NCBI RefSeq assembly: GCF_019024325.1
Contig: NZ_JAFNJS010000004.1
Location: 496,001-560,000, forward strand
DNA: 64,000 nt
DNA from: Falsiroseomonas tokyonensis
GTDB lineage: Bacteria; Pseudomonadota; Alphaproteobacteria; Acetobacterales; Acetobacteraceae
Direction of reading: 5' to 3'
Shown here: in pieces, positions 1 through 14,936 of the stretch
Layout of the letters: the number at the start of each line of letters is the position of its first letter
Position numbering within the stretch: position 1 is the first letter of the stretch
Translations under genes and position numbers: made by a program
The notes under the pieces: model-generated
What the model was told of the DNA's origin: nothing
The model's database searches: none
Seen by the model: only the letters and a program-made list of their open reading frames with translations

Positions 1-156
1 CGCGCCGCGGTCTGGCAGCGGGAGAGGCTGGCGGAGGGCGCGCGCATCGCCGGCCCCGCCATCATCCAGCAGGCGGATGCCACCACGGTGCTGGAGCCGC
101 GATCCGAGGCCGTGGTCGATGCCATCGGCAACCTGCGCATCACGGTGAAGCCATGA
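1..156 (+). CDS. hyuA: Hydantoinase/oxoprolinase A subunit, C-terminal end only
   Basis: Only the last 51 codons are inside the window, reading in frame to TGA. The residues visible (AGPAIIQQADATT, then a VDAIGNLRI-type ending) match the conserved C-terminal beta-rich end of the HyuA/OplA family, where the pattern is GPAII-x-E/Q-x-D-x-T-T. The family binds ATP and, with HyuB, hydrolyses cyclic amides such as hydantoins or 5-oxoproline. The stop overlaps the ATG of the following hyuB (ATGA), so the two are translationally coupled. The assignment rests on this short tail plus the adjacent HyuB; the substrate cannot be read from it. Confidence 0.85.
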   Translation, partial: RAAVWQRERLAEGARIAGPAIIQQADATTVLEPRSEAVVDAIGNLRITVKP

Positions 157-1826
157 TCGATGCCCTGACGCTCGCCGTGATCCAGGCCGGGTTGCAGCAG
201 GTCTGCAACGAGATGGACATCACCTTCTCCCGCGCCGCCTTCTCGCCGGTGATTGCGGAGGCCGATGACCGCTCGGACGGCATCTATGCGGCGGAGGATG
301 GCGCGCTCATCGCGCAGGGCGAGCTCGGCCTTCCGGTCTTCGTCGGCACCATGGCGCATTCGGCCGCGCATCTGGTGCGGCTGATCGGCGAGGGTGCGGT
401 TGCGGCGCCGGAGCCGGGTGACATCTACATCGTCAACGACCCCTATCTCGGCGGCACGCATCTGATGGATGTGCGCTTCTGCCGGCCCTTCTTCGTGGAT
501 GGCGAGCTGTTCTGCTGGCTGCAGAACACCGGCCACTGGCCCGATATCGGCGGCATGGTGCCCGGTGGCTTCTCCGCGCATGCGACCGAGGTGGAACAGG
601 AAGGCCTGCGCCTGCCGCCCGTAAAACTGTTCAAGAAGGGCGCGCTGGATCGGGAGATCCTGTCGATCATCCAGTCCAACATCCGCGTCGCGGACCAGCG
701 CATCGGCGACATCAAGGCGCAGGCGGCGGCGCTGCTGGTGGGCGAGACGCGTCTGGCGGAGATGGTGACGCGCTATGGCCTGCCCACGCTGCGCGAGGCC
801 ATCGCCGGAATCCGCGCGCGCGCGGCGGAGCGCATGCTGGCGGAAATCCAACGCATTCCGGATGGCGTCTATACCTCTGAAACCTTCGTGGATTCGGATG
901 GCGTGGTGGATGCGCCGCTGCGCATCGCGCTGACCGTCACGCGCCAGGGCGACGAGCTTGTCTTCGATCTTTCGGACTCCTCGCCGCCCTGCCAGGGGCC
1001 GATGAATTCCGTCTGGGCCACCACCTGTTCCGCCGTGTATCTGGCGATGAAGCACATCTTCCCGGATGTGCCGATCAATGCCGGCACCTTCGCACCGCTG
1101 CGCGTGATCCGGCCCGAGGGCACCTTCCTCGATGCGCGCTATCCGCGGCCCGTCTCCGGCTGCGCGGCGGAAGTCTCGCAGCGGATTGCGGAGGCGGTGT
1201 TCCTTGCGATCGCGCAGGCGCTGCCGGCGGAAGTCTGGGCCGCGCCCGCCGGCACCTCCGGCAATTTCGCCCTTGGTGGCTTCGATCCGGCGCGCAAGGC
1301 CGGCTATGTGATGTACCAGATCACCGGCGGCGGCTATGGCGGCACGGCGGAGGCGGACGGGCTGACCAATGGCTGCTCCACCATCGGCATCAGCAAGACC
1401 GCGCCGGTGGAGGTGATGGAACAGTACTACCCCGTCCTGTTCCGGCGTTTCGCGATCCATGAGGGTTCGGGTGGCGCCGGCGCGCAGCGCGGCGGCTTTG
1501 GCGTGCATTACGAGGTGGAGCTGCTGCGCGGCGAGGCCAAGGCCAGCTTCGTCATGGATCACGGCCGCTTCGGCCCGCCCGGCGTGCTCGGCGGCGGCGA
1601 GGGCGCGAAGAACGTCGTGAAGCTGCATCGCGGCGGCCAGACCACCATCCCGCTGCATCTGTCGAAGGACCAGGGGCTGCAGCTGCGCGCGGGCGACCGG
1701 GTGGAGGTGATGACGCCCGGCGGCGGCGGCTATGGCGACCCGCGCGCGCGCGATCCCGCGCTCGTCGCGCGGGATGTGCGGCGCGGCTATTATACGCCGG
1801 AGCAGGCAAAGGCAGTGTGGGGATGA
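153..1826 (+). CDS. hyuB: Hydantoinase/oxoprolinase B subunit
   Basis: A 557-residue protein of the HyuB (hydantoinase B/oxoprolinase, PF02538) family, normal length. Visible family marks are NDPYLGGTHLMDV near residue 92, the EGLRLPPVK segment near residue 150, and the glycine-rich C-terminal GGGGYGDP. With HyuA it should carry out ATP-dependent opening of a cyclic amide in the cytoplasm. It overlaps the upstream hyuA and the downstream FAD-subunit gene by ATGA junctions, so it sits inside a single transcription unit with molybdenum hydroxylase genes; this context suggests the ring opened is a hydroxylated and reduced N-heterocycle rather than a simple hydantoin. The substrate is inferred, not shown. 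Confidence 0.9.
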   Translation: MIDALTLAVIQAGLQQVCNEMDITFSRAAFSPVIAEADDRSDGIYAAEDGALIAQGELGLPVFVGTMAHSAAHLVRLIGEGAVAAPEPGDIYIVNDPYLGGTHLMDVRFCRPFFVDGELFCWLQNTGHWPDIGGMVPGGFSAHATEVEQEGLRLPPVKLFKKGALDREILSIIQSNIRVADQRIGDIKAQAAALLVGETRLAEMVTRYGLPTLREAIAGIRARAAERMLAEIQRIPDGVYTSETFVDSDGVVDAPLRIALTVTRQGDELVFDLSDSSPPCQGPMNSVWATTCSAVYLAMKHIFPDVPINAGTFAPLRVIRPEGTFLDARYPRPVSGCAAEVSQRIAEAVFLAIAQALPAEVWAAPAGTSGNFALGGFDPARKAGYVMYQITGGGYGGTAEADGLTNGCSTIGISKTAPVEVMEQYYPVLFRRFAIHEGSGGAGAQRGGFGVHYEVELLRGEAKASFVMDHGRFGPPGVLGGGEGAKNVVKLHRGGQTTIPLHLSKDQGLQLRAGDRVEVMTPGGGGYGDPRARDPALVARDVRRGYYTPEQAKAVWG

Positions 1827-2665
1827 CGGCCTATCACCGCCCGACGAGGCTGGAGGATGCGCTGGCGATCCGCGCCGGCGCGGATGTGGCCGTGCTCGCC
1901 GGCGGCACGGACATCTTTCCCGCCCGCACCGCGCGTGCCGCCTGGGGCGATCCGACGCACAAGGACGTGCTGGATATCAGCGCCCTGCCCGGCCTGCGCG
2001 AGATCTCCGAAACCGACGAAGGCTGGCGCATCGGCTGCCTCGTCACCTGGTCCACGCTGATCGGGGCCGCGCTGCCGCCGCTTTTTGATGGGCTGAAGGC
2101 CGCGGCGCGGGAGGTAGGCGGCCGGCAGGTGCAGAATCGCGCGACGCTGGTAGGCAACATGGTTACCGCCTCGCCGGCCGGCGACGGCATTCCGATCCTG
2201 CTGGCGCTGGACGCGTCCGTGGAGATCATCAGCCGGCGTGGCGCACGCAGGGTGGCGGTGGCGGAATTCCTCACCGGCTATCGCACGACGGCCCTGGCGG
2301 CGGATGAGCTGGTTCTCGCGCTGCACGTGCCGCGGCTGCATGGCGGACAGGGTGGCTTCCGCAAGCTGGGCGCGCGGCATTACCTGGTGATCTCCATCGC
2401 CATGACAGCAGGCGTGATCGCGACCGATTCCGCAGGGCGCATCACAAGCGCCCGCATCGCGCTGGGCGCCTGTTCCGCCGTGGCGCAGCGGCTGCCGGCG
2501 CTGGAGGCGGCGCTGATCGGCGTGGCGCGTGCGCAGGCCACGCAGGTCGTGCAACCGCATCACCTGCAATCCATCTCCCCCATCGACGATATCCGCGCCA
2601 GCGCTGCCTATCGCCGTGACGCCGCGCTGGTGCTGCTGCGGGATCTGCTGGAGGCGCGCGCATGA
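1823..2665 (+). CDS. FAD-binding subunit of a molybdopterin dehydrogenase (CoxM-type)
   Basis: A 280-residue member of the FAD_binding_5/CO dehydrogenase medium-chain family, usual length about 280-300. The N-terminal AVLAGGTDI motif and the QVQNRATLVGNM segment are the two FAD-contacting loops of this family. It passes electrons from the iron-sulfur domain to an acceptor. I use the ATG overlapping the hyuB stop rather than the GTG two codons earlier. The partner is the fused FeS/molybdopterin protein encoded immediately downstream with a 4-base overlap. Confidence 0.9.
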   Translation: MTAYHRPTRLEDALAIRAGADVAVLAGGTDIFPARTARAAWGDPTHKDVLDISALPGLREISETDEGWRIGCLVTWSTLIGAALPPLFDGLKAAAREVGGRQVQNRATLVGNMVTASPAGDGIPILLALDASVEIISRRGARRVAVAEFLTGYRTTALAADELVLALHVPRLHGGQGGFRKLGARHYLVISIAMTAGVIATDSAGRITSARIALGACSAVAQRLPALEAALIGVARAQATQVVQPHHLQSISPIDDIRASAAYRRDAALVLLRDLLEARA

Positions 2666-5349
2666 TCGACATCGCCTTCACTCTGAACGGCACACCCTGC
2701 ACCGTCGCCGCGCCGCCCTTCGCGCCGCTCTCCGACACGCTGCGCGAAAGGCTCGGCCTGACCGGCACCAAGGAAGGCTGCAATGCCGGCGACTGCGGCG
2801 CCTGCACCGTCCTGGTAGATGGCGCCCAGGCCTGCGCCTGCCTCATCCCCTCGGCGCAGGCGCAGGGCGCAGAGGTGCAGACGGTGGAGGCGACGCAGGG
2901 CGAGGTTGGTGCCGTGCTGGCGCGTCTGCGCGCCGCCTTTCTCGCGCATGGCGCGGCGCAATGCGGCATCTGCTCGCCGGGCATGCTGATGGCCGCCACG
3001 GATCTGCTGCTGAGAAATGCGGCACCGGATCGCGCGGCGGTGCGCGATGCCTTGGGCGGTGTGCTGTGCCGCTGCACCGGCTATGCGAAGGTCCTGGATG
3101 CCGTGCTGGATGCGGCGCCGCAGGCTGCTCCCGCGCCAGAGGCGGGGAAGGCGGTCGGTGCCGGCATCGCGCGGCTGGATGGCGTGGCGAAGTTGGATGG
3201 CACGGATCGCTTCGGCGCGGATGAAGCGCCGGCTGATGCGCTCTGGCTGCGCGTGGTGCGATCCCCGCATGCCAGCGCGCGGTTCACTCTTGGTGACCTG
3301 GAAGCCGCACGACGCGAATGGCGGCTGGACGCCATCCTGACCGCCGACGATGTGCCTGGGCTGAACGCCTTCGGCATCATGCCAGCTCTGAAGGACCAGC
3401 CGGTACTGTCCGATGGGCTGGTGCGTTTCCGTGGCGAGGCGGTGCTGGGCCTGGTCGGCACGCGGGAGGCGGTGATGGCGGTGCGCGATTCCGCCCTGCC
3501 GATCACCTGGCACCCTCTGCCCGCGCTGCATGGTACGGCGGAGGCCAGCGCGGCGGAAGCGCCGCAGCTGCACGCGCATGCGCCCGGCAATCTGCTGATC
3601 GAGGGCAAGCTGAATCGCGGGACGCCGGCGCGTGACATCGCCAATGCAGAAGGCCGCTTCACCACCGCCTTCGTCGAACACGCCTATATCGAGCCCGAAG
3701 CCGGCTATGCGCAGCCCGCGCCGGATGGCCTCGGCATGGAGGTCTTTGCCTGCACCCAGGCGCCCTACATGGACCGCGAGGAGACCGCGCGCGTGCTGGG
3801 CGTGGCGGAAGAGCTCGTGCGAATCCGTCCCAGCGCCTGTGGCGGCGGTTTTGGTGGGAAGCTGGATGTCTCGGTGCAGCCGCTGCTCGCGGTGGCCGCG
3901 AGCAAGCTGAACCGGCCGATACGCATCGTCTATTCGCGCGCCGAAAGCATGGCGAGCACGACGAAGCGCCATCCCGCCAGCATCACCGCGCGCATGTCGG
4001 CCGATGCGGAAGGCCGCTTCACCAGCTACGAATTCGACGCAGATTTCAACACCGGCGCCTATGCCAGTTGGGGCGCGACGGTGGCCAATCGCGTGCCGGT
4101 GCATGCCGGCGGTCCCTATCGCATCCCGAACCTGCGCAACCGCGCGCGGGCCATCTATACCAACGACACGCCCGCCGGCGCCTTTCGCGGCTTTGGCGTA
4201 CCGCAGGCGGCGATCGCCACCGAATCGCTGGTGGACGATCTGGCGGAACAGCTCGGCCTGGATCGCTGGGAGATCCGGCGCCGCAATGCCATCGGGCGCG
4301 GCGACACGACGCATAGCGGCCAGGTGCTGCATGCCTCCGCTGGCCTGCCAGAATGCCTGGATGCGCTGAAGCCGGAGTGGGAGGCGATGCTGGCGCGCGT
4401 CGCCGCGCACAATGCCACGTCGCCGCGCGAAAGGCTCGGCGCGGGCATCGCCTGCATGTGGTACGGCTGCGGCAATACCAGCATGTCCAACCCTTCGCGC
4501 ATGAAGCTGACGCTTTCGCGCGACGGCACGCTGACGCTGTTCAACGGCGCGGTGGATATCGGCCAGGGCAGCACGACGGTCATGGCGCAGATCTGCGCCG
4601 ATGCGCTGGGGCTGCCGCTGCAGAACTTCCGATTCGTGCTGGGCGATACGTCGCGCACCTATGACGCCGGCAAGACCAGCGCCTCGCGCCAGACTTTCGT
4701 CAGTGGCCGCGCCGCGATGGAGACGGGGCTGGCGCTGCGGCGGCGCATCCTGGCGCTGGCCAATGCGGGCGAGGATGCGGTGCTGGCGCTCGAGGGCACG
4801 CAGCTGCGCGTCGGGGCTGCGCGCGTGATCGACCTCGCCACGCTCGACGCCGACCTGGAAGCCGAAGGCCGTTACGATCCGCCGACCACGGCGCTCGACG
4901 AGAACGGCCAGGGCACGCCCTATGCCACCTACGGCTTTGCCGCGCAGATCGCGCTCGTCTCCGTGGACACTGCGCTCGGCGTCACCAGGGTGAAGCGCAT
5001 CGTCGCGGCGCAGGATGTGGGGCGCGCGGTGAATCCCACGCTCGTGCTCGGCCAGATCCATGGCGGCATCGCCCAGGGTCTCGGCCTCGCGCTGATGGAG
5101 GAATTCATACCCGGCCGCACCGAGAACCTGCACGACTACCTGATCCCCACCGCAGGCGACGTGCCGGAGATCGCGGTGCATCTGATCGAGGATCCGGAAC
5201 CCGAAGGCCCCTACGGCGCGAAAGGTGTAGGCGAGCCCGCGCTGGTGCCGACGGCGCCGGCCATCCTCTCCGCCATCCGCCACGCCACCGGCGTCACCAT
5301 GCGCCAGGTGCCGGTGCTGCCGCACCGGCTGTGGGAGCAGATGCGATGA
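2662..5349 (+). CDS. Fused [2Fe-2S] and molybdopterin-binding hydroxylase (xanthine dehydrogenase family)
   Basis: An 895-residue fusion. Residues 1-155 are a CoxS-like domain with the plant-type cluster ligands C40, C45, C48, C60 and the second-cluster ligands C101, C104, C136, C138. The remainder is an aldehyde oxidase/xanthine dehydrogenase large domain with GGGFGGK near 395, GAFRGFG near 507 and GVGEPAL, whose Glu (about 858) is the expected catalytic base. Such enzymes insert water-derived oxygen next to a ring nitrogen, or oxidise aldehydes. The small and large chains are usually separate genes in bacteria; here they are one. FAD subunit lies upstream and a 6-hydroxynicotinate-reductase-like gene downstream, both overlapping, which points to an N-heteroaromatic substrate. 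Confidence 0.9.
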   Translation: MIDIAFTLNGTPCTVAAPPFAPLSDTLRERLGLTGTKEGCNAGDCGACTVLVDGAQACACLIPSAQAQGAEVQTVEATQGEVGAVLARLRAAFLAHGAAQCGICSPGMLMAATDLLLRNAAPDRAAVRDALGGVLCRCTGYAKVLDAVLDAAPQAAPAPEAGKAVGAGIARLDGVAKLDGTDRFGADEAPADALWLRVVRSPHASARFTLGDLEAARREWRLDAILTADDVPGLNAFGIMPALKDQPVLSDGLVRFRGEAVLGLVGTREAVMAVRDSALPITWHPLPALHGTAEASAAEAPQLHAHAPGNLLIEGKLNRGTPARDIANAEGRFTTAFVEHAYIEPEAGYAQPAPDGLGMEVFACTQAPYMDREETARVLGVAEELVRIRPSACGGGFGGKLDVSVQPLLAVAASKLNRPIRIVYSRAESMASTTKRHPASITARMSADAEGRFTSYEFDADFNTGAYASWGATVANRVPVHAGGPYRIPNLRNRARAIYTNDTPAGAFRGFGVPQAAIATESLVDDLAEQLGLDRWEIRRRNAIGRGDTTHSGQVLHASAGLPECLDALKPEWEAMLARVAAHNATSPRERLGAGIACMWYGCGNTSMSNPSRMKLTLSRDGTLTLFNGAVDIGQGSTTVMAQICADALGLPLQNFRFVLGDTSRTYDAGKTSASRQTFVSGRAAMETGLALRRRILALANAGEDAVLALEGTQLRVGAARVIDLATLDADLEAEGRYDPPTTALDENGQGTPYATYGFAAQIALVSVDTALGVTRVKRIVAAQDVGRAVNPTLVLGQIHGGIAQGLGLALMEEFIPGRTENLHDYLIPTAGDVPEIAVHLIEDPEPEGPYGAKGVGEPALVPTAPAILSAIRHATGVTMRQVPVLPHRLWEQMR

Positions 5350-6842
5350 GCGACCATGGCAGCCTCGCCGCACGATCCCAGAAGTTCGGCGCGCCGGAGG
5401 GCGACCAGGGCATCGTGCGCTGCGATGCCTGCCCGGTGCTGTGCCGCATCCGCCCCGGCCGCAGCGGCGCCTGTTCGCGCTACGCCAATGAGAATGGCCA
5501 GCTGGTGCGCACCGATCCGGCGGTGACGCTGGCGCGCGCGGTGGAATCGGGCGGCCCCGTCGTCGCCTTCGCGGAGGGCGCCTGGGACGGCCAGCTGCTC
5601 GATCCGTCGCGCGCCTTCGTCACCGGCATCGGCGCCGGCACCACCTATCCGGACTACAAGCCCGCCCCCTTCATCGTCGGCGCCAGCCATGCGGGGGTGG
5701 ATACCGTCACCATCGTGACGGAGGGAATCTTCAGCTATTGCGGCGTGAAGGTGAAGATCGACACGGATCGGCACCTGGGCGCGGAGGCCGCCGCCGTGCG
5801 CGCGAATGGCGAACAGGTGGGCCATGTCACCACGGCCGAATATGGCAGCCAGATGCTCTCCCTCGGCGGCGTACGGCACCTCACCGGTGGCAGCAAGAAG
5901 GAAGGCACCACCACCTGCGACACGCTGCTGAAGCTGTGCGCGGGCGAGGCGGTGGGCCTCACCATCGATGGCGGCCATGCGGTGCGCGTGCAGGCCGGCC
6001 AGGCGCCGGTGGTGGATGGCAAGCCGGAGGTGCGCATGCGCGTCGGCTGCGGCAGCGCCACCATCGGCATCTTCGCCCAGCAGTGGCTTGGGCAGGTGGA
6101 TGAGGTCATCGTGGTGGATGACCACATCACCGGCCTGCTTTCGGAACACCAGGCGGGCAAGGTGCTGGGCATGAAGCCCACCGGCATCCGGCTGCGCGGA
6201 CGGCGCTCCACCCCCGGGCGCTATTTCCAGGTGGCGAATCCGGGCCTCGGCTGGGGCGGGACGGATATCAGCGATCCGCTGGCGATCATCGAGAGCATCG
6301 ACCCAAAGATCGCCTGGCCCGGCCTGCGCCTGCTGCTGACCTCCACCACCGGCGAGGACGCGCTGTGGTGCGTGCTGGATGACACGCTGCGCCCCATCCC
6401 CGGCCCCATGCCTGACGGCGTTGCCAAGGTGGTGGAGCGCATCGGCGAGAATTGCGAACCCTCGCTCTGCACCGTCATCTTCATGGCCGGCGCCGGCGGA
6501 TCGCTGCGCGCGGGCGTCACGGAGAATCCGGTGCTGCTGACGCGCAGCGTGGCCTCCGGCGAAACGCGCGTCACCATGGGCGGCGCGCCCGTCTATCTCT
6601 GGCCCGGCGGCGGCATCACCGTCATGGCCGATGTGCTGCGCCTGCCGAAGAACGCCTTCGGCTATGTGCCGACGCCGGCTTTGGTCGCGCCCATCGAATT
6701 CACGCTGCCGCGCGCGCTGTACGAACGCCTCGGCGGGCATATGTCCGAGATCGTGCCGGTGCAGGATCTGCTGCGGAATCTCGGCCCGTCGCTGCGCATC
6801 GAGGACTGGCAGGCGGGCAATCCCTGGCCCTTCGCCGGCTGA
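5346..6842 (+). CDS. 6-hydroxynicotinate reductase-like iron-sulfur protein
   Basis: A 498-residue protein that I recognise as the family annotated 6-hydroxynicotinate reductase. The N-terminus has a CxxCxxxC...C set (C26, C29, C33, C43) suited to one [4Fe-4S] cluster, and more cysteines follow (C132, C191 and others). The characterised relative, from the Eubacterium barkeri nicotinate fermentation, carries FeS clusters and a covalently bound flavin and reduces 6-hydroxynicotinate to its tetrahydro form. I start at the ATG overlapping the hydroxylase stop; a GTG five codons earlier is possible. Its place between a molybdenum hydroxylase and hydantoinase genes supports reduction of a hydroxylated heterocycle. 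The exact substrate is unknown, and the original enzyme is from an anaerobe while this genome looks aerobic. Confidence 0.75.
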   Translation: MSDHGSLAARSQKFGAPEGDQGIVRCDACPVLCRIRPGRSGACSRYANENGQLVRTDPAVTLARAVESGGPVVAFAEGAWDGQLLDPSRAFVTGIGAGTTYPDYKPAPFIVGASHAGVDTVTIVTEGIFSYCGVKVKIDTDRHLGAEAAAVRANGEQVGHVTTAEYGSQMLSLGGVRHLTGGSKKEGTTTCDTLLKLCAGEAVGLTIDGGHAVRVQAGQAPVVDGKPEVRMRVGCGSATIGIFAQQWLGQVDEVIVVDDHITGLLSEHQAGKVLGMKPTGIRLRGRRSTPGRYFQVANPGLGWGGTDISDPLAIIESIDPKIAWPGLRLLLTSTTGEDALWCVLDDTLRPIPGPMPDGVAKVVERIGENCEPSLCTVIFMAGAGGSLRAGVTENPVLLTRSVASGETRVTMGGAPVYLWPGGGITVMADVLRLPKNAFGYVPTPALVAPIEFTLPRALYERLGGHMSEIVPVQDLLRNLGPSLRIEDWQAGNPWPFAG

Positions 6843-6843
6843 C

Positions 6844-7695
6844 ATGCCGCAGGTGCAGCGCCTGACGCAGGACCGGCTGCATCTGCAGCATGGCCCGATC
6901 GACGTGGTGCTGCGCGCCTGGGGTCCGCCTGCTTCCGTCGCCGCGGCGGAGGCGGCCGCGGTGGCGCGCTTCCAGAGCGTGCTGCCCGAGCTCGTCGCCG
7001 AATTGCCGCTGTTGCGCCGCGCCGCGGACCCCGCCGTGCGGCCGCAGGGCGACATTGCCAGGACCATGCATGCCGCCTGCCTGCCCCATGCCGCGCGCGG
7101 CTTTTTCGTCACGCCCATGGCGGCGGTCGCCGGCGCTGTGGCGGATGCGCTGCTGGCGGCGATGCGCGCCGCGGCGCCGGATCTCGCCCGCGCCTTCGTC
7201 AATGACGGCGGCGATATCGCCGTGCTGCCCGGCGACGGCCTTGATATCGGCCTGGCGATGGATCCGCGCGGCGGCTTCGACGGCGCGCTGCATTTGCGCG
7301 CGGCCGATGGCATCGGCGGCATCGCCACCTCCGGCCGGCACGGCCGGTCCTTCTCCCTCGGCATCGCCGATGCCGTCACGGTGCTGGCGCGCGATGCGGC
7401 TGCGGCGGATGTGGCAGCGACGCTGATCGCCAATGCGGTGGATGTGCAAAGCTCCGCCATCACCCGCCGCCCCGCCGCCACGCTCGATCCGGACAGCGAT
7501 CTGGGCGAGCGTCTGGTGACGATGGCGGTCGGCGCGCTGACCGCGGCCGAGATCGAGGCCGCACTTCACGCCGGCGCCACCTTCGCCGAATCCTGCTGCC
7601 AGGCCGGGCTGATCCGCGCCGCCGCGCTGCGCCTCGGCGGCCAGTTCCGCCTCGTCGGCACCCCCTTCCTCTCGCTGAAGGCCCCAAGCCCATGA
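6844..7695 (+). CDS. UPF0280 family protein (ApbE-like fold)
   Basis: A 283-residue UPF0280 member, recognised from the AGAVADALL stretch, the FVNDGGDIAVL block and the GIATSGRHGRSFSLG block with ATSGR-type spacing as in ApbE flavin transferases (there NxGGD and TSG...). UPF0280 proteins share the ApbE-like fold but their job is not established. It starts one base after the reductase stop and its own stop overlaps the next gene. Because the characterised 6-hydroxynicotinate reductase has covalent flavin, a role in attaching FMN to the upstream protein is an attractive inference. No signal peptide is visible, so it probably acts in the cytoplasm, unlike most ApbE proteins. Confidence 0.8.
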   Translation: MPQVQRLTQDRLHLQHGPIDVVLRAWGPPASVAAAEAAAVARFQSVLPELVAELPLLRRAADPAVRPQGDIARTMHAACLPHAARGFFVTPMAAVAGAVADALLAAMRAAAPDLARAFVNDGGDIAVLPGDGLDIGLAMDPRGGFDGALHLRAADGIGGIATSGRHGRSFSLGIADAVTVLARDAAAADVAATLIANAVDVQSSAITRRPAATLDPDSDLGERLVTMAVGALTAAEIEAALHAGATFAESCCQAGLIRAAALRLGGQFRLVGTPFLSLKAPSP

Positions 7696-8279
7696 CCCAG
7701 ACGCTGGACATCCGGAAGACCGTGCTCTGCGTGGAGGAGATCCACCATGATGGCGGCCCGCGCCTCGCCACCCCGCTGCTGAAGGGCTGGTGCGCCGTGA
7801 TCCTGCGCAACCCCTTCGCCGGGCGGCACGAGCCTGAGCTGATGTGGATGATGGAGGCGATGAAGCCGATCGGGCTGATGGTGGCCCAAAGGCTGCTGGC
7901 GGGCCTCGGCGGCGATCCCGCGCGGATCGAGGCCTATGGCAAGGGCGGCCTGGTCGGCTCGGCCGGGGAGCTGGAGCACGGCGCGCTGTGGCATGTGGCG
8001 GGCGGCTATGCCATGCGCGGCCTGCTTGGCCAGGCGCTGTCCATCGTGCCGTCGATGACCAAGGTGGGGCCGATGGGCGCGGTGCTGGACCTGCCCATCC
8101 ACCATCGCAACGCCGCCTATGTGCGCAGCCATTTCGACGGCATCACCGCGACGGTGCCGGATGCGCCGCGGCCGGAGGAGATTCTTTTCGCGCTCGCCAT
8201 GACCACCGGCGGCCGCCCGCATGCCCGGGTCGGCGGGCTGACGCAGGATGCGATCAGCGCCTGGGACGGTCAGCGCTGA
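7692..8279 (+). CDS. Amino acid synthesis family protein (PF06684 type)
   Basis: A 195-residue protein of the family named amino acid synthesis protein (DUF1185/PF06684). Visible marks are the VEEIHHDGG start, LRNPFAG, the YGKGGLVG and ELEHGALWH segments, and GMTTGGRPHARVGG-like C-terminus. The molecular function is not known; relatives often sit beside hydantoinase or amidase genes, which is also the case here. It ends the operon that begins before base 1 and its 3-prime end overlaps the convergent regulator gene by 10 bases. Probably a ring-cleavage or tautomer-handling step of the same pathway, but that is inference from location only. Confidence 0.8.
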   Translation: MTQTLDIRKTVLCVEEIHHDGGPRLATPLLKGWCAVILRNPFAGRHEPELMWMMEAMKPIGLMVAQRLLAGLGGDPARIEAYGKGGLVGSAGELEHGALWHVAGGYAMRGLLGQALSIVPSMTKVGPMGAVLDLPIHHRNAAYVRSHFDGITATVPDAPRPEEILFALAMTTGGRPHARVGGLTQDAISAWDGQR

Positions 8280-9337
8280 TCCGCGAGCTTTGGCGCGCCG
8301 CCGCGATCCTGCCGCGGCGACCGGCCGAAGCGGGCGCCATAGGCGCGGGAGAAATGCGCGGCGCTAACGAAGCCGCAGGCCATCGCCACCTCCAGCACCG
8401 AAAGCGCCGTCTGCTGCAGCAGGCGGCGCGCATGGTCCAGCCGCAGGCCCAGGTAGTGCGCGCCGATGGTGCGGCCCAGATGGCTGCGGAACAGCCGTTC
8501 CAGCTGCCGGACGGAGATGCCGGCCTGCTCCGCCAGGACCTCGCGCGAGAGCGGCGTCTCAATGGCGCGTTCCATCTGCGCCAGCGCCGCCAGCAGGTTG
8601 GGATGGCCGATGTCGTAGCGTTCCCGCAGGCTCATCCTTTGCGGTTCGTCGCCGGCGCGCGGGCGGGTATGCAGGAACCATTCGGCCACGGCGCGCGCCA
8701 GCGGGCGGCCATGCGCGGCCTCGATCAGTGCCACCATCATGTCCAGCGCCGCGGTGCCGCCGGAGGAGGTGCAGCGGTCGCGATCCACCTCGAACAGCGA
8801 GCGGGTCAGGGTCAGGTTGGGGAAGCGCTCGGCCATCGCCGGGATGTATTCCCAATGCGCCGTGCAGCGGTGCCCGGCCAGCAGCCCGGCCCGCGCCAGG
8901 ATATAGGGTCCGCCCGAAACGCCGCCGATGCGGATGCCGCGCGCCGCTTCCGCCCGCAGCCAGGCCAGCGTCGCCGGATCCTCGAATTCAGCCGGATTGC
9001 CGCCGGCGCAGACGAAAAGCGCATCGACCTGCGCCGGCGCGCCGGTGCCCTGGTCCGCCACGATCGACACGCCGTTGGAGGCGCGCACCGGCTTGCCGTC
9101 CGGCGAGATATGAATCCACTGGTACAATATCACGCCCGCCAGGTCATTGGCGGCGCGGAAAGGCTCCACGGCGCAGGCATAGGCCAGCATCGCGAAGTCC
9201 GGCACCAGGACGAAGCCGATGCGTTGCGGCGCCGCCTCCAGCCGCGCGGCCCCGATCGCCAGACCGTCGCGCCGGATCGGCCCGCGGGGGTCAGGCGGTC
9301 CGGAGGTCGGGAAGCGCGTGGTCGGCGAGGTTGTCAT
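8270..9337 (-). CDS. GlxA family transcriptional regulator (DJ-1/PfpI plus AraC domains)
   Basis: A 355-residue protein from the ATG at 9337. Residues about 35-200 form a DJ-1/PfpI-like domain (IGFVLVPDFAMLAY start, FVCAGG, a GGVSGGPYILARAG region where the nucleophile-elbow Cys is replaced by Ser), and the last 100 residues are an AraC-type double helix-turn-helix (LAEQAGISVRQLERLF, then VAMACGFVSAAHFSRAY). GlxA proteins are cytosolic regulators that often control amino acid or amine catabolism. It converges on the heterocycle operon and is divergent from the transglutaminase gene, so either could be its target. A longer N-terminus starting near 9430 is possible but unusually proline/arginine rich. 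Confidence 0.85.
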   Translation of the reverse strand: MTTSPTTRFPTSGPPDPRGPIRRDGLAIGAARLEAAPQRIGFVLVPDFAMLAYACAVEPFRAANDLAGVILYQWIHISPDGKPVRASNGVSIVADQGTGAPAQVDALFVCAGGNPAEFEDPATLAWLRAEAARGIRIGGVSGGPYILARAGLLAGHRCTAHWEYIPAMAERFPNLTLTRSLFEVDRDRCTSSGGTAALDMMVALIEAAHGRPLARAVAEWFLHTRPRAGDEPQRMSLRERYDIGHPNLLAALAQMERAIETPLSREVLAEQAGISVRQLERLFRSHLGRTIGAHYLGLRLDHARRLLQQTALSVLEVAMACGFVSAAHFSRAYGARFGRSPRQDRGGAPKLADQR

Positions 9338-9403
9338 CGGGACACGCGATGGTGGCGCCAGGACCTTTCGCTGTCCACCGGCGGCTGCGCGGCCTATGCC
9401 AGG

Positions 9404-9419
9404 GAACCAAGCCTGGTTC
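9404..9419. promoter_or_regulatory. Inverted repeat in divergent intergenic region
   Basis: GAACCA-AGCC-TGGTTC is a perfect 6-base inverted repeat with a 4-base spacer. It lies in the 152-base gap between the divergent GlxA-type regulator (start 9337) and the transglutaminase-like gene (start 9490), roughly 70 bases from each start. This is where a self-regulating operator would be expected. I see no strong promoter hexamers around it, so the call is tentative. Confidence 0.35.
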
Positions 9420-9489
9420 GTTCCGTTCACGTGATTGCGTTGCCAAGGGCCGGGCCTTCCCGGCTCATCCCGTCCCCGAGGAGTTCGCC

Positions 9490-10299
9490 ATGCGCATCAG
9501 CGCCGGCTGCCAGATCACCTACGACTGCCCGCAGCCGACCCCGATGCTGCTGATGATCAGCCCGCATCCCTCTCGTACCCCGGACCTGATCGGCCCGCAC
9601 CAGGTCACGTTCGACCCGCCCATCCCCGCGCACCACTACCGGGACGGCTTCGGCAATACCTGCACGCGCATCGTCGCCCCGCCCGGCCGGCTGGTCATCG
9701 GCACGAAGCTGCTGGTGCAGGATAGCGGCCGCCCGGACCCGCTGCTGCCCTATGCGCGCCAGCACAAGGTGGAGGACCTGCCGGACGAGGCGCTGGTCTA
9801 CCTGCTGGGCAGCCGCTACTGCGACACGGACAAGCTGGCCGATTTCGCCTGGGCGCAGTTCGGCCAGGGGCCGGAAGGCTGGGCGCGGGTGCAGGCCATC
9901 TGCGACTATGCACACAACCACATCACCTTCGACTATCAGCGGGCCAGCGCGACCCGCAGCGCGCATGATGCGCATCGCGAACAGGTCGGCGTCTGCCGGG
10001 ATTTCGCGCATCTGGCCGTCACGCTGTGCCGCTGCGTCAATATCCCGGCGCGCTACTGCACCGGCTATCTGGGCGATATCGGCATGCCGCCGCCCTATGG
10101 GCCGATGGATTTCGCCGCCTGGTTCGAGGTGTATCTCGACGGCGCCTGGCACACCTTCGACGCGCGCAACAACACGCCGCGCATCGGCCGCATCCTTATG
10201 GCGCGCGGGCGGGATGCGACGGATGTCGCCATCACCACCACCTTCGGGCCCTGCACCCTCTCCGGCTTCCAGGTCTTTACGGACGAGGCGCCGGCTTGA
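9490..10299 (+). CDS. Transglutaminase-like cysteine protease family protein
   Basis: A 269-residue cytosolic protein with an N-terminal transglutaminase-associated beta domain and a transglutaminase core. The nucleophile is C169 in GVCRDFAH and the third triad residue is probably D224 in TFDAR. The position where most relatives of the fold have the catalytic His (H-A-W) reads A209-A-W, so the triad looks incomplete; I cannot tell whether this is normal for its subfamily. Relatives act as proteases or amidases on peptides. The stop overlaps a TTG start of an N-formylglutamate amidohydrolase gene, which suggests co-translation and a joint role in amide hydrolysis. A long upstream extension of the frame is rejected as shadow of the divergent gene. 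Confidence 0.85.
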   Translation: MRISAGCQITYDCPQPTPMLLMISPHPSRTPDLIGPHQVTFDPPIPAHHYRDGFGNTCTRIVAPPGRLVIGTKLLVQDSGRPDPLLPYARQHKVEDLPDEALVYLLGSRYCDTDKLADFAWAQFGQGPEGWARVQAICDYAHNHITFDYQRASATRSAHDAHREQVGVCRDFAHLAVTLCRCVNIPARYCTGYLGDIGMPPPYGPMDFAAWFEVYLDGAWHTFDARNNTPRIGRILMARGRDATDVAITTTFGPCTLSGFQVFTDEAPA

Positions 10300-11021
10300 G
10301 CGACCCGCCGGCCGTCACCGCGGTGAACGCGGCCGGCGCCTCGCCGCTGGTGCTGGTCTGCGAACACGCCAGCAACCACATTCCGGCACGCCACGCCGCG
10401 CTGGGCCTGCCGCCCGCGGAATTGCAGCGCCACATCGCCTGGGACATCGGCGCGGCGGCGCTGGCGCGGCGGCTGTCCGCGCTGCTGGATGCGCCGCTGT
10501 TCCTCTCGGGCTATTCCCGCCTGCTGATCTACTGCAACCGCCCGCTGGGCGTGCCCAGCAGCATCCCGCTGCGCAGCGAGACGACGGATATCCCGGGCAA
10601 TCACGACCTGACGCCGGCCGAGGTGGCGCAGCGGCAGGACGAATATTTCTGGCCCTTCCAGGACCGCATCTCGCGCTTCCTGGATGCGCGGCCGACCCGC
10701 TTCCTGCTCGGCGTGCACAGCTTCACCCCGGTCTTCCAGGGCGTGCCGCGCCCGTGGCAGGCCGGGTTACTGTATGGCGAGGCCACCGGCTTCGGCGCCG
10801 CGCTGATCGCCGCGCTGCGCGAGGACCCGGCCCTGACGGTGGGCGACAACGAGCCCTACCGGATCGATCTGGCGGAGGACTACACGGTGCCGGTGCATGG
10901 CGATGCCCGGGACATCCCGGCCGCGTTGATCGAGGTGCGGCAGGACCTGCTGGCCGATGATCCCGGGATCGAGGCCTGGGCCCAGCGCCTGGCGGGGGTG
11001 CTTTCCACCGCCATCGCCTGA
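10296..11021 (+). CDS. N-formylglutamate amidohydrolase family protein
   Basis: A 241-residue PF05013 protein. Family signatures are LVLVCEHASNHIP near the N-terminus (metal-binding E-H region), AWDIGAAALARRL, YSRLLIYCNRP and LGVHSFTP. HutG-type enzymes release formate from N-formylglutamate in histidine breakdown, but this subfamily, found away from hut genes, probably cleaves other N-acyl amino acids. I choose TTG at 10296, giving a 4-base overlap (TTGA) with the transglutaminase stop; it is the only start that keeps the conserved N-terminus without a long unrelated extension. Confidence 0.88.
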   Translation: MSDPPAVTAVNAAGASPLVLVCEHASNHIPARHAALGLPPAELQRHIAWDIGAAALARRLSALLDAPLFLSGYSRLLIYCNRPLGVPSSIPLRSETTDIPGNHDLTPAEVAQRQDEYFWPFQDRISRFLDARPTRFLLGVHSFTPVFQGVPRPWQAGLLYGEATGFGAALIAALREDPALTVGDNEPYRIDLAEDYTVPVHGDARDIPAALIEVRQDLLADDPGIEAWAQRLAGVLSTAIA

Positions 11022-11132: not shown

Positions 11133-11533
11133 ATGGAAGCGCCCGACCGCAATCTCGGCTTCCTGCTGCACGACACCGCCCGGATGCTGCGCAAGGGCTT
11201 CGAGCAGAATGCGCGGCATCTCGGCCTGACCCGCGCCCAGTGGCAGGTGATGGCCACGCTCGCCCGCAACGAAGGGCTGTACCAGGGCGCGCTGGCGGAG
11301 CTGTTGGAGCTCGAGCCGATCACCCTGGTCCGCATCCTGGACCGGTTGCAGGCCAATGGGCTGATCGAGCGCCGCCTTAACCCAACGACCGCCGCCTGCG
11401 CGTGCTGCATCTGACGGAAACGGCGCACCCCAAGCTGATGATGTTCGTGGCCCTGGCCGCCGTGCCGATGCTGCTGTTGTTGCGGCGCGCCCGGCCGAAG
11501 CCGGGCGCCGCCGCGGAAGCCATTATCGACTAG
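11133..11533 (+). pseudogene. Broken MarR regulator fused to the tail of an exporter
   Basis: From the ATG at 11133 an intact MarR N-terminus reads for about 80 codons (NLGFLLHDTARMLRKGF, LTRAQWQVMATLA, VRILDRLQANGLIERR). It then loses frame in the wing: the expected NDRRLRVLHLTE continues one frame over from base 11384, as after a single-base deletion, and the original frame stops at 11414. In the second frame the sequence changes right after HLTETA to KLMMFVALAAVPMLLLLRR plus a charged tail, which looks like the last transmembrane helix and C-terminus of a DHA2/EmrB drug exporter, ending at TAG 11533. MarR genes often precede emrA-emrB, so an internal deletion has probably joined the first and last genes of such an operon. 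Non-functional. Confidence 0.7.
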
Positions 11534-13242
11534 GCGCGGACCAGCCTGCCGGGACGCGCGCCCGTCTCCTGCCCGCGCTCCATGATCGGCTGGCCGGAGA
11601 CCAGGGTCATGTCGTAACCCTCCACGCGCTGCACCAGGCGGCGGCCGCCGGCGGGCAGGTCGTAGATCATCTCCGGGTGGTGCAGGCGCAGCGCCTCGAA
11701 GTCGATGACGTTCACATCCGCCTTCTTGCCCACCTGCAGCCGGCCGCGATCGGTCATGCCGAAGAAATCCGCCGTCTCGCTGGTCTGCCGCTTCACCGCG
11801 AATTCCAGCGGCACGCGGTCGCCGCGCGCGCGGTCGCGCACCCAATGCGTCAGCATGAAGCTGGGCATGGAGGCATCGCAGATGACGCCGCAATGCGCGC
11901 CGCCATCCGAAAGCCCGTTCACCGTATGCGGGCGCAGCATCATGTCATGCACGACCGACAGATCGCCGCCGACATAGTTCACCACGGGGAAGTACAGCAT
12001 CCGCCCGCCATCATCCGCCGTCAGGTAGTCATAGCAGAAGGCGGCCGGGTCCTGCCCGGCCTTGGCGGCCAGGGCGGCGATGGAACGCTCCGGCGGCGGC
12101 TCGTAATCCGGCGGATCGCCGAGGGCGAACATATTGTCCCAGCGCGTCGCGATCTGACGCGACAGCGGCGGCACCACATGCAGCAGCCGCTCCGAGGCTT
12201 CCTCCGCCAGGATCTTTGCCCGGGTTGCCGGCTCCCGGAGCTTTGCCAGCTGTTCCTTCGGCGGCAGCGCGGCCAGTTCGTGAAAGCCTTCGCGCAGGGC
12301 AAAGGGATTCAGCGAGGTGGTCAGGCCGAGGATCAGGCCCACGGGGCGGCAGGCCACCTGCGCGGACAGCGGCAGGCCATCGGCGCGCGCCGCATCCACA
12401 TTGCTCATCAGCCGGCGCCAGCGCTGCGGGTCGTAGTTGCGGTCCGTCAGCAGGAACCACACGGGACGGCCCGAAATCGTCGAAAGCTCCCGCATCCAGC
12501 GGAAGTCGGCGGCCTCGTCCTCGAAGTCGGACAGCATGCCAAAGGTGCCGCGGCCGGCGCGGCCCATGGCGCGGCCGATGGCCAGCAGTTCCTTCTCCTC
12601 CGCATAGCGGCCGGGCACCAGGTCGCCCGTCGGCGTCTTGTGCTGGTCGGTGCGGGAGGTGGTGAAGCCGAAGGCGCCGGCGCGGAGCGCATGCTCCGTC
12701 AGTGTCGCCATCTCCTCCATATCCTCGGCCGTGGCGGCCTGGCGGTTCAGCCCGCGCTCGCCCATCACATAGACGCGCAGCGGGTGATGCGCGATCTGCG
12801 CGCCAATATCGATGGTGCGCGGCATGCTGCCCAGCACGTCGAGATATTCGGGGAAGCTCTCCCAGTTCCACTTCAGCCCCTCGGTCAGGGTGATGCCGGG
12901 AATATCCTCCACCCCTTCCATCAAATCGATCAGGGCCTTGTGGTCGCGCTTGCGCACCGGGGCGAAGCCCACGCCGCAATTGCCGAAAAGCACGGTGGTG
13001 GCGCCGTGCCAGACGGAAGGCGCCAGCACCGGGTCCCAGGTGGCCTGGCCGTCGTAATGCGTGTGCACATCGACCCAGCCCGGCGTCACCAGACGGCCTT
13101 CCGCCGGCACGTCCCGCTTCGCCGGCCCCGCCTTGCCGCCCACCTGGGTGATGCGGTCGCCATCGATCGCCACGTCGCCGGTGAAGGCGGGCTGGCCGGT
13201 GCCGTCCACGATGGTGCCGCCCCGGATGACCAAATCGTGCAT
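11530..13242 (-). CDS. N-acyl-D-amino acid deacylase-type amidohydrolase
   Basis: A 570-residue amidohydrolase of the D-aminoacylase (COG3653) group. It begins MHDLVIRGGTIVDGTG, has the metal motif HTHYDGQ near residue 65, a GNCGVGFAP segment, and SDGGAHCG near residue 430. These zinc enzymes remove acyl groups from N-acyl-D-amino acids or act on related N-carbamoyl/hydantoin compounds. I start at the ATG at 13242, preceded by a GAGGGGG ribosome site; an upstream extension is arginine/proline rich and unlikely. It is divergent from a peptide-type ABC importer with 110 bases between them, which may bring in its substrate. The stop overlaps the last codon of the marR relic. Confidence 0.88.
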   Translation of the reverse strand: MHDLVIRGGTIVDGTGQPAFTGDVAIDGDRITQVGGKAGPAKRDVPAEGRLVTPGWVDVHTHYDGQATWDPVLAPSVWHGATTVLFGNCGVGFAPVRKRDHKALIDLMEGVEDIPGITLTEGLKWNWESFPEYLDVLGSMPRTIDIGAQIAHHPLRVYVMGERGLNRQAATAEDMEEMATLTEHALRAGAFGFTTSRTDQHKTPTGDLVPGRYAEEKELLAIGRAMGRAGRGTFGMLSDFEDEAADFRWMRELSTISGRPVWFLLTDRNYDPQRWRRLMSNVDAARADGLPLSAQVACRPVGLILGLTTSLNPFALREGFHELAALPPKEQLAKLREPATRAKILAEEASERLLHVVPPLSRQIATRWDNMFALGDPPDYEPPPERSIAALAAKAGQDPAAFCYDYLTADDGGRMLYFPVVNYVGGDLSVVHDMMLRPHTVNGLSDGGAHCGVICDASMPSFMLTHWVRDRARGDRVPLEFAVKRQTSETADFFGMTDRGRLQVGKKADVNVIDFEALRLHHPEMIYDLPAGGRRLVQRVEGYDMTLVSGQPIMERGQETGARPGRLVRA

Positions 13243-13292
13243 GCGAACCCCCTCAACCTGGCGTGCCCCGGAAGAGCACTTGCATCCCAGTC

Positions 13293-13321
13293 TTGAAATC
13301 TCTGCCGGAAGCGGTGTCAAT
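13293..13321 (+). promoter_or_regulatory. Possible sigma-70 promoter for the peptide ABC operon
   Basis: TTGAAA (5 of 6 to consensus) at 13293-13298 and GTCAAT (3 of 6) at 13316-13321, 17 bases apart, lie 32 bases before the receptor start. The -10 half is weak, so this is a candidate only. Confidence 0.3.
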
Positions 13322-13352
13322 GTGCGCGGGGCGAACGAGGGACCATTTTTCC

Positions 13353-14936
13353 ATGAGCATCGAACGGCGCGACCTTCTGCTGGGCACCGCGGCACTCGCG
13401 GCCGGATCATCGCTCGGCGCACCCGCCGTGCTGGCGCAGCGCGGCGGCCGCACCCTGCTGCTGGCCGCCCCCGGCGCACCGGAGGGCTTCGACGGCGATG
13501 CGCTGCGGCCCGGCACGCAGGAGACGGTGGTGCAGGTCTATGAGGGCCTGACCCGCTACGGCCGCACGGAGCGCGACGGCCGCCCCTACCTCAACCCCGA
13601 CGTCATCGAGGGCCATCTGGCGGAAAGCTGGACCAATTCGCCGGACGGCAAGAGCTGGGTCTTCAAGCTGCGGCAAGGCGTGAAAAGCTTCTACGGCAAC
13701 GAGCTGACGGCCACGGATGTGGAGTGGAGCTGGGCCAAATCCTTCGCGCAGCGCCGCACCGGCAATTTCATCGCCAGCGTCTCCAACGTCACCGCCGTGA
13801 AGGCGAAGTCGCGCTACGAGGTGGAGTTCACCCTCTCCGCCCCCAGCCTGATCCTGCTCTCCGCGCTGACGCTCTATGTGCCCGGCATCTACGACAGCAC
13901 CGAGGTGAAGAAGCACGCCACCGCCGAGGACCCCTGGGGGCTAAAGTGGATGGAGACCAATACGGCGGGCTTCGGCGCCTATCACCTCGAATCGGTGCGT
14001 TCGGGCGAGCAGGCGGTCTTCGTCGCCAATCCGAGCTATTTCCGCGAACAGCCGCATTTCAACCGGGTGATCTTCCGCGCCGTGCCCTCCGCGGCGTCCC
14101 GCATCACCCTGCTGCGCAGCGGCCAGGTGCAGTGGATCCACAGGCCGCTGCTGCAGCAGGTGGCGGAGCTGCGCGCCGATCGCCGCGTGAAGACGCAGGA
14201 CAGCTTCGGCCGCACCATCTCCTCGCTGCGCATGAACCTGCGCTTCCCGCCCTTCGACAACAAGCTGGTGCGGCAGGCCTTCAACTATGCGGTGGACAAG
14301 CAGGCGCTGATCCAGGGCGTGTTCTTCGGCCTGGCCGAGCAGGCACGCTCCATCATCCCGCCCATCGTCGCCAGCTACGACCCCAGCGCCTTCAAATACG
14401 ACCACAACCCGGACCGGGCGAAGGCGCTGCTGGCGCAGGCGAATTTCGACTTCAACCAGGATGTAGAGATCCTCTACAGCCAGATCTTCAACTGGGAGGA
14501 GGCGCTGTCCATCCAGGTGGCCTCGCAGCTGCAATCCATCGGCGTGAAGGCGCGCGCCGTGCGGATCAGCGACAGCGACATGCGCGCACGCGGCGCCCCG
14601 GCGCGGCAGGACATGCCCTTCTTCGCCTTCGAGGACGGGCCCATCGTGCTGGACCCGGTCTATACCACCTACCTGCTGGCGCATTCCCAGGGCGTGTCCA
14701 ACCGCGCCCGCTTCGCCGATCCGCGCATGGACGCCTTGATCGACGAGGCGCGCACCAGCCTCGACGTGCCGCGGCGGAACGAGCTGATGCGCCAGGCCCA
14801 GGCGCTGTGGATGGAGGAGGCGCCCTGGATCGCCACCGTCTACCCGAGCGTCTGGGAGGCGATGGCGCCCAATATCTCTGGCTGGTGCCCGCATCCGGAC
14901 GATCATGAACGCTGGTACGACCTGAAGGTGGGCTGA
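13353..14936 (+). CDS. Peptide/nickel-type ABC transporter substrate-binding protein
   Basis: A 527-residue SBP_bac_5 family receptor. It opens with a Tat-like signal (ERRDLLLGTAALAAG, cleavage probably after AVLAQ). The mature part shows the family pattern of LAESWTNSPDGKSWVFKLRQGVK and, later, RQAFNYAVDK. It should bind a peptide or similar oligomer in the periplasm and deliver it to the two permeases that follow. I prefer the ATG at 13353 because it places the signal peptide at the N-terminus. The stop overlaps the next start (TGATG). Its divergence from a D-aminoacylase-like gene suggests D-amino-acid-containing cargo; this is inference. Confidence 0.9.
   Translation: MSIERRDLLLGTAALAAGSSLGAPAVLAQRGGRTLLLAAPGAPEGFDGDALRPGTQETVVQVYEGLTRYGRTERDGRPYLNPDVIEGHLAESWTNSPDGKSWVFKLRQGVKSFYGNELTATDVEWSWAKSFAQRRTGNFIASVSNVTAVKAKSRYEVEFTLSAPSLILLSALTLYVPGIYDSTEVKKHATAEDPWGLKWMETNTAGFGAYHLESVRSGEQAVFVANPSYFREQPHFNRVIFRAVPSAASRITLLRSGQVQWIHRPLLQQVAELRADRRVKTQDSFGRTISSLRMNLRFPPFDNKLVRQAFNYAVDKQALIQGVFFGLAEQARSIIPPIVASYDPSAFKYDHNPDRAKALLAQANFDFNQDVEILYSQIFNWEEALSIQVASQLQSIGVKARAVRISDSDMRARGAPARQDMPFFAFEDGPIVLDPVYTTYLLAHSQGVSNRARFADPRMDALIDEARTSLDVPRRNELMRQAQALWMEEAPWIATVYPSVWEAMAPNISGWCPHPDDHERWYDLKVG

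Follow-up and report, generated by a model that had tools for sequence, protein, structure and literature searches.

Nicotinate fermentation by Eubacterium barkeri was reportedly described by Alhapel in 2006. The enamidase of this bacterium needs no ATP, its later anaerobic steps use a B12 mutase, and we know of no second ring-opening enzyme for the reductive nicotinate route. In 2012 a nicotinate cluster was published for Azorhizobium caulinodans, Bradyrhizobium, Rhodopseudomonas and strain SG-6C (PMC3511419; this and the other sources given by PMC number were available in part, and statements drawn from them refer to those parts). In that work the 6-hydroxynicotinate reductase (HNR) of SG-6C shares 42% identity with its E. 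barkeri counterpart, and the SG-6C cluster, conserved in A. caulinodans and others, carries nicotinate via tetrahydro-oxonicotinate to glutarate. Here we analyze a 64,000-nucleotide stretch of the 6.16 Mb genome of Falsiroseomonas tokyonensis (bases 496001–560000 of contig NZ_JAFNJS010000004.1; hereafter the window), which opens on what is most likely a nicotinate-degradation operon of the HNR type whose ring-opening enzyme has been exchanged for a HyuA/HyuB pair (HyuAB).

Gene calling with Pfam and NCBIfam scans gave seven genes in the order HyuA, HyuB, FAD-binding subunit, FeS/Mo subunit, HNR, UPF0280 and PF06684. Neighbors overlap by 4 bases at five junctions and are separated by 1 base at the sixth, between HNR and UPF0280 (Table 1). 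A preliminary description of this DNA had seen a tight cluster of eight genes; its gene content, order and packing hold, with the count corrected to seven. The fifth product is, as judged from its sequence, a homolog of 6-hydroxynicotinate reductase. It is 42% identical to the HNR of Acetobacterium bakii, 66% to that of Azorhizobium doebereinerae and 40–49% to enamidase-near HNR proteins in the non-alphaproteobacterial loci L080–L129. Homologs are labelled hnr or 6-hydroxynicotinate reductase in several plasmid records, and C26, C29, C33, C43, C235 and C370 are kept in at least 96 of 98 sequences.

Near many HNR clusters lies a conserved amidohydrolase whose sole PDB match at E ≤1e-5 is the enamidase 2VUN (E 2e-109). 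Three of these proteins are 46–47% identical to 2VUN, and His65, His67, Glu162, His191, His218 and Asp274 of the 2VUN alignment, which we take to be the metal ligands, are kept. The HNR locus of A. bakii holds an enamidase 82% identical to 2VUN together with UPF0280 and PF06684 proteins 38% and 39% identical to those of the window, plus hydroxylase subunits, and the same companions recur in Clostridia, Desulfobacteraceae, alpha- and betaproteobacteria, with some of them also in an archaeon of the Archaeoglobi. When named genomes were scanned from the 2VUN alignment, 80 loci were retained; since they were found by their enamidase, they add only to the enamidase side of the comparison. The F. 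tokyonensis genome gave no enamidase match at E 1e-30 (27 candidates scored) and has HyuAB instead.

Whole-genome searches showed that HyuB and enamidase are distributed in a nearly either/or manner among HNR-carrying genomes. Strong HNR matches were present in 44 of 289 genomes of the class (46 at E 0.001, with the short, weak matches of G059 and G182 dropped), 44 of 200 genomes of the order and 32 of 398 genomes of the phylum, the samples overlapping. HyuB was assigned to the window's clade at ≥66% identity and enamidase at ≥67% in the first sample and ≥51% in the second, cut-offs that were chosen after the scores had been seen. The 44 HNR-positive class genomes then divide into 27 with clade HyuB and 17 with enamidase, none holding both and none neither. 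A further 71 HNR-positive genomes comprised 28 with HyuB only, 40 with enamidase only, two with both and one with neither, giving 57 carriers of window-clade HyuB among 115 genomes, 55 of them without enamidase. Clade HyuB occurred in none of the 245 HNR-negative class genomes (best four candidates scored per genome) and in none of 156 HNR-negative order genomes (best seven candidates; three genomes are in both samples), and the one enamidase found in the 245 has an in-frame stop. The 66% cut-off lies close to the nearest outsiders, HyuB proteins of 63–64% identity in the HNR-negative G114 and G217. HyuB is also kept at a distance from HNR, 52 kb away in G105 and 1.4 Mb away in G066, where a HyuA is still in the cluster. 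Because the F. tokyonensis genome is itself rich in both families (HyuB-family matches number 12 at E 1e-60, MoCoBD_1 matches 17), the linkage of HyuAB was judged by clade and not by family.

Closer to home, five of the six other sampled genomes of the genus have HNR and HyuB (85–96% identity), and the sixth, G337, an HNR-negative control outside the 71, lacks HNR, clade HyuB and enamidase. Among the 16 HNR-bearing genera of the family in the sample, HyuAB occurs in two and enamidase in 13, and the remaining one (G390) lacks both openers. Some of the matches counted are imperfect: the HyuB of G064 matches only in part, at a contig end, in-frame stops interrupt the enamidase in G277 of the first sample and in G304, G796, G463 and G464 of the second, and HNR is split in G028 and cut at a contig end in G231.

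A quick maximum-likelihood tree was built from 102 HNR proteins, leaving out fragments shorter than 400 residues and most L080–L130 loci, bar a few outgroups. On it, the label of the ring opener changes at least nine times, four of the changes being forced by starred branches. On a tree of 68 FeS/Mo subunits the label needs six changes, three of them forced. The sister pair L061 (genome G210) and L063 (genome G104), from two genera of one family, displays a same-slot swap: the same hydroxylase gene has enamidase as its neighbor in G210 and HyuB-HyuA in G104. The opener label is clustered on the HNR tree (0 of 500 shuffles were as low), and raw genome counts therefore overstate independence; Fisher tests, which take no account of kinship, were set aside. 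With their complementary distribution and the label changes on the HNR tree, the replacement of enamidase by HyuAB is a well-supported reading of these comparisons, as the preliminary description had proposed; the hydroxylate-reduce-hydrolyse logic and the relation to the E. barkeri route that it had suggested are likewise supported. It had held that rare co-occurrence of these genes would speak against it. This was not seen, as clade HyuB was found only with HNR, though in many genomes the two are not adjacent.

The best NCBIfam matches of HyuA and HyuB are the caprolactamase alpha subunit CapA (499.6 bits) and beta subunit CapB (306.1 bits); neither protein reaches the curated cut-off of 1000 set for these equivalogs (NF050156/NF050157). 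The ATP motifs DxGGT, DxGGT and GxxPGP, at 9, 282 and 346 of HyuA, are kept in 30 aligned HyuA proteins, one gap aside, and the metal tetrad D42/H103/D106/H128 of HyuB in 25 of 25 aligned HyuB proteins. H103, D106 and H128 are spaced as H99, D102 and H124 of CapB, while D42 (CapB D41) was matched by motif and lies three residues further apart; the reference motif and tetrad residues were taken from PMC8453981. CapAB of Pseudomonas jessenii is a two-subunit ATP-dependent lactam hydrolase, and substrates of the HyuA/HyuB family include lactams, hydantoins and, for its carboxylases, ketones (PMC8453981). The six-membered δ-valerolactam is opened with ATP by an oxoprolinase pair (PMC11033972). The caprolactamase kinship, the intact motifs and the δ-valerolactam precedent together suggest that HyuAB is an ATP-dependent opener of 6-oxo-1,4,5,6-tetrahydronicotinate.

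In the proposed route, which rests on comparative evidence and whose activities are putative, a Liv-type ATP-binding cassette (ABC) transporter would take up the substrate and the FAD and FeS/Mo subunits would hydroxylate it to 6-hydroxynicotinate, as their family and context suggest. HNR, probably with ferredoxin as donor and with a flavin that UPF0280 may attach covalently, would form 6-oxo-1,4,5,6-tetrahydronicotinate. The ATP site of HyuA could then activate the lactam as a phosphorylated lactim, and the metal site of HyuB could hydrolyze it to 2-(aminomethylene)glutarate, which would give ammonia and 2-formylglutarate, the same product that enamidase would yield. The carbon would go on to glutarate, as in the published account of Azorhizobium (PMC3511419). 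A glutarate outcome fits the presence of a CoA-transferase and an acyl-CoA dehydrogenase in both L061 and L063; the L063 pair is nearest to succinate-glutarate CoA-transferase and to models of FadE and of glutaryl-CoA dehydrogenase, all under cut-off. Related cyclase/kynurenine-formamidase-like genes, recognized by eye, lie near HNR in one enamidase-type and one HyuAB-type genome (L054:4094-4843 and L076:479-1270). The L054 protein has no NCBIfam match, and these genes perhaps encode a deformylase for 2-formylglutarate.

Three chains of the E. barkeri nicotinate dehydrogenase 3hrd match the FeS/Mo subunit with 229.5, 195.6 and 103.7 bits; their sum of 529 is the highest among the listed PDB enzymes in what is a rough comparison, and the best single chain is that of an aldehyde oxidoreductase (390 bits). 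Annotations of nicA, nicB and hnr mark the HyuAB-type clusters of a Paracoccaceae plasmid (CP031593) and of Neorhizobium (CP030828), whose NicB proteins contain molybdopterin (MoCoBD) and cytochrome c domains, and the HyuAB-type cluster of genome G837 has a NicA/NicB-type hydroxylase. NicB-like proteins are found in the HyuAB-type HNR loci L190, L201 and L202 as well as in the enamidase-type loci L153, L180, L191, L195 (partial), L196 (partial) and L197. Two findings make nicotinate the likeliest substrate: a NicA/NicB-type hydroxylase stands beside both forms, and neither the HNR tree nor the hydroxylase tree keeps the two forms apart. The preliminary description had allowed that the substrate might be something else; for the window operon, too, nicotinate now appears likely.

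The surroundings of HNR were compared in 80 fetched loci drawn from the 115 HNR-positive genomes. UPF0280 is present in 79 of them (in the exception, L078, the contig stops after HNR). Each of the two hydroxylase subunits, FAD and FeS/Mo, occurs in 63 loci, PF06684 in 60, MarR in 42, the Liv permease in its fused form in 38, and HyuB and enamidase in 25 each. With UPF0280 in 79 loci and the two hydroxylase subunits in 63, the association of genes around HNR is not chance. For PF06684, PMC2954203 gives as context the transport and metabolism of branched-chain amino acids, not nicotinate. Nine loci have a VanA-type Rieske oxygenase, which in L057 (12221-13267) is flanked by PF06684 on one side and the transporter on the other; its role might be to remove a methyl group from a related pyridine or to hydroxylate it. 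A 2-oxoacid:ferredoxin oxidoreductase lies near HNR or its enamidase in L059, L060, L061, L063, L132 (KorA only) and L154, accompanied in L059–L061 by an NAD(P)/FAD reductase, and L202 has a ferredoxin-NADP reductase. These redox genes are likely to supply electrons to HNR.

The predicted structure of the window HNR (predicted local distance difference test score 91.5) has no PDB match at Foldseek E ≤0.001, and only a small barrel of the model resembles the glycine cleavage T-protein. Of 58 rows that comprise the window, the G genomes and the named loci from L131 on (almost exclusively alpha- or betaproteobacterial), 57 retain two further cysteines, Cys132 and Cys191, and position 132 is Ser or a gap and position 191 Ala in all 40 rows of L080–L130, mostly Clostridia and Desulfobacterota. 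In this lineage, which is mostly aerobic, the pair perhaps serves a further cluster or forms a disulfide. The protein matched by NF003322/PRK04334, presumably the one named UPF0280, has the ApbE fold, with sequence similarity to ApbE near noise (E about 0.1). From this fold and the linkage to HNR, we propose that UPF0280 is a flavin transferase that attaches flavin to HNR. No flavin acceptor site was found on HNR, where T239 of a GSAT motif varies, and in the open-licence literature no publication was found under the name UPF0280, nor on UPF0280 together with hydantoinase.

Proteins distantly resembling enamidase, 36–46% identical to the alphaproteobacterial enamidase, occur in some genomes, including G390, and in several enamidase genomes they are present as a second copy. 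Ten of them (L205–L212, L218 and L219, some from HNR-negative genomes such as G060 and G202) were considered as enamidases and rejected, as they fall outside the 33 enamidase rows on a tree (split support only 53; two starred groups). All ten have Lys or Phe at the position of 2VUN Glu162 (the tenth, partial, has Lys), where the enamidases checked have Glu. On account of the tree placement and this substitution, the distant proteins, which might still open the ring, were not counted as enamidase, and G390 was scored as having neither opener.

Several observations weigh against a nicotinate operon in which HyuAB replaces enamidase. G591 and G658 hold both openers and G390 holds neither, and three HyuB genomes (G104, G064 and G428) carry a distant enamidase-like protein of 36–42% identity. 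The starred branches provide four independent pairs, in which the opener is opposite in 3.8 of 4 on average; the median p of a sign test is 0.125, and with only four pairs it could not fall to 0.05. Xanthine dehydrogenase matches the FAD subunit better (91 bits) than does 3hrd_C (77 bits), its sixth PDB match, and none of the NCBIfam matches of HyuA, HyuB or the hydroxylase subunits reaches its cut-off, so that it is from context that the first step is taken to be specific for nicotinate. Finally, the use of ATP by HyuAB is unexplained when set against the ATP-free enamidase. The same operon logic might serve another carboxylated pyridine or N-heterocycle, with HyuAB opening its reduced lactam. 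This would suit the best single-chain PDB and NCBIfam matches of the fused hydroxylase subunit, to aldehyde oxidoreductase and selenium-dependent xanthine dehydrogenase, and the Rieske oxygenase of nine loci could mean a decorated substrate. We nevertheless regard another substrate as unlikely, given that both trees interleave HyuAB and enamidase forms, with loci of Azorhizobium and Afipia, close to the organisms studied in PMC3511419, falling among them, that NicA/NicB-type hydroxylases occur beside HyuAB-type HNR, and that by chain sum no PDB entry matches the FeS/Mo subunit better than E. barkeri nicotinate dehydrogenase.

It is also conceivable, if quite improbable, that an unrelated enzyme elsewhere opens the ring and HyuAB acts later, for example on a glutarate-derived amide. 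The range of lactams, hydantoins and ketones handled by the family (PMC8453981), the distant enamidase-like proteins of a few HyuB genomes and an operon that gives no direct proof of its substrate would accommodate a later step. However, the near-perfect either/or with enamidase and the same-slot swap are what replacement predicts, a later step would be required in enamidase genomes as well, and only three of the 57 HyuB genomes held a distant enamidase-like protein at the cut-offs used. Least probable of all is that HyuAB is tied to HNR merely by shared descent or gene-block transfer and has no role in the route. The clustered label and a sign test above 0.05 would agree with this, but at least four switches are forced, clade HyuB was found in none of the 245 HNR-negative class genomes, and HyuB is retained far from hnr in G105 and G066. 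We thus favor nicotinate degradation with HyuAB in the place of enamidase. The wider proposal, that about half of the HNR-carrying alphaproteobacteria have repeatedly swapped enamidase for a HyuAB lactamase, which would be a new activity of the oxoprolinase family, and that UPF0280 is a dedicated HNR flavin transferase, appears to us evenly poised between right and wrong.

The complete Liv-type ABC transporter precedes hyuA in the same direction with gaps or overlaps of less than 10 bases, indicating that the operon continues upstream of the window. At its other end the operon is overlapped by 10 bases by the AraC-family gene on the opposite strand, which from its position is a possible regulator. 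Genes for this AraC regulator, a transglutaminase-like and an N-formylglutamate-amidohydrolase-like protein follow the operon (8270–11021), and likewise in G428 and G403 (L160, L161). Further on (11530–18772), a minus-strand Amidohydro_3 amidohydrolase faces genes for a family 5 solute-binding protein and an apparent dipeptide-type ABC transporter, of which only the binding protein was scanned.

Table 1. Genes of the operon and its flanks, in window coordinates (negative positions lie upstream of the window in the same genome, locus L009)
Feature	Position	Strand	Basis
Substrate-binding protein, Liv-type transporter	-6451 to -5228	+	upstream, own genome (L009)
Fused permease, Liv-type transporter	-5218 to -3365	+	upstream, own genome (L009)
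Two ATPases, Liv-type transporter	-3368 to -2586, -2593 to -1880	+	upstream, own genome (L009)
hyuA, 676 aa	-1874 to 156 (L009:14126-16156), last 51 residues in window	+	Pfam Hydant_A_N, Hydantoinase_A, Hydant_A_C
hyuB, metal-bearing B subunit	153-1826	+	PF02538, E 2e-159
FAD-binding subunit, molybdenum hydroxylase	1823-2665	+	PF00941, PF03450
Fused [2Fe-2S]/molybdopterin subunit (FeS/Mo), xanthine-dehydrogenase-family	2662-5349	+	PF00111 (Fer2), PF01799 (Fer2_2), PF01315 (Ald_Xan_dh_C), PF02738 (MoCoBD_1), PF20256 (MoCoBD_2)
hnr, 6-hydroxynicotinate reductase homolog, 498 aa	5346-6842	+	homology; no Pfam family above cut-off
UPF0280 protein, ApbE-like fold	6844-7695	+	NCBIfam NF003322/PRK04334 'hypothetical protein', 332 bits vs cut-off 290
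PF06684 (AA_synth/DUF1185) protein	7692-8279	+	PF06684, E 9e-64; PDB 3byq, 2qtp
AraC-family regulator with DJ-1/PfpI domain, GbdR-like (under cut-off)	8270-9337	-	scans, position

If HyuAB opens the ring, the reductive route is present in many genomes that an enamidase search misses, clade genes now annotated as N-methylhydantoinase or acetophenone carboxylase would gain a substrate, and an ATP-free enzyme would have been exchanged for an ATP-spending one. The link of UPF0280 to HNR would be one of maturation and would provide a first function for the UPF0280 family. ApbE and other FAD:protein FMN transferases have Nqr/Rnf subunits as clients, whereas the client of UPF0280 would be HNR. In Pseudomonas putida, NicAB is the nicotinate hydroxylase; the window shares this proposed first step and uses an FAD subunit and a fused FeS/Mo subunit for it instead. 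With CapAB, the window HyuAB has in common the two subunits, the ATP motifs and the D-H-D-H metal tetrad, but HyuA scores near half of the curated cut-off for CapA and HyuB near a third of that for CapB, and the proposed substrate is a carboxylated six-membered enamide-lactam in place of a seven-membered lactam.

As to novelty, the preliminary description had called the system undescribed. A cluster with the first three nicotinate steps is in print for aerobic alphaproteobacteria, in the available part of PMC3511419, and an aerobic variant as such was therefore already known. Among the matches listed from the open-licence literature we found no description of the HyuAB form; PMC6346535, considered as a precedent from those matches, concerns, in the part available, 5-oxoprolinase in fungal glutathione metabolism. 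The new parts are thus the HyuAB form and the role proposed for UPF0280, within a cluster family already in print. The Azorhizobium-type relatives A. doebereinerae (L153) and Afipia (L150, L159) carry enamidase, by which they were found, whereas the window has HyuAB. The E. barkeri route has in common with the window a molybdenum hydroxylase, HNR and a ring opening to 2-formylglutarate, which in the window is the predicted product; it differs in combining enamidase with separate molybdenum subunits, where the window has HyuAB and a fused FeS/Mo subunit.

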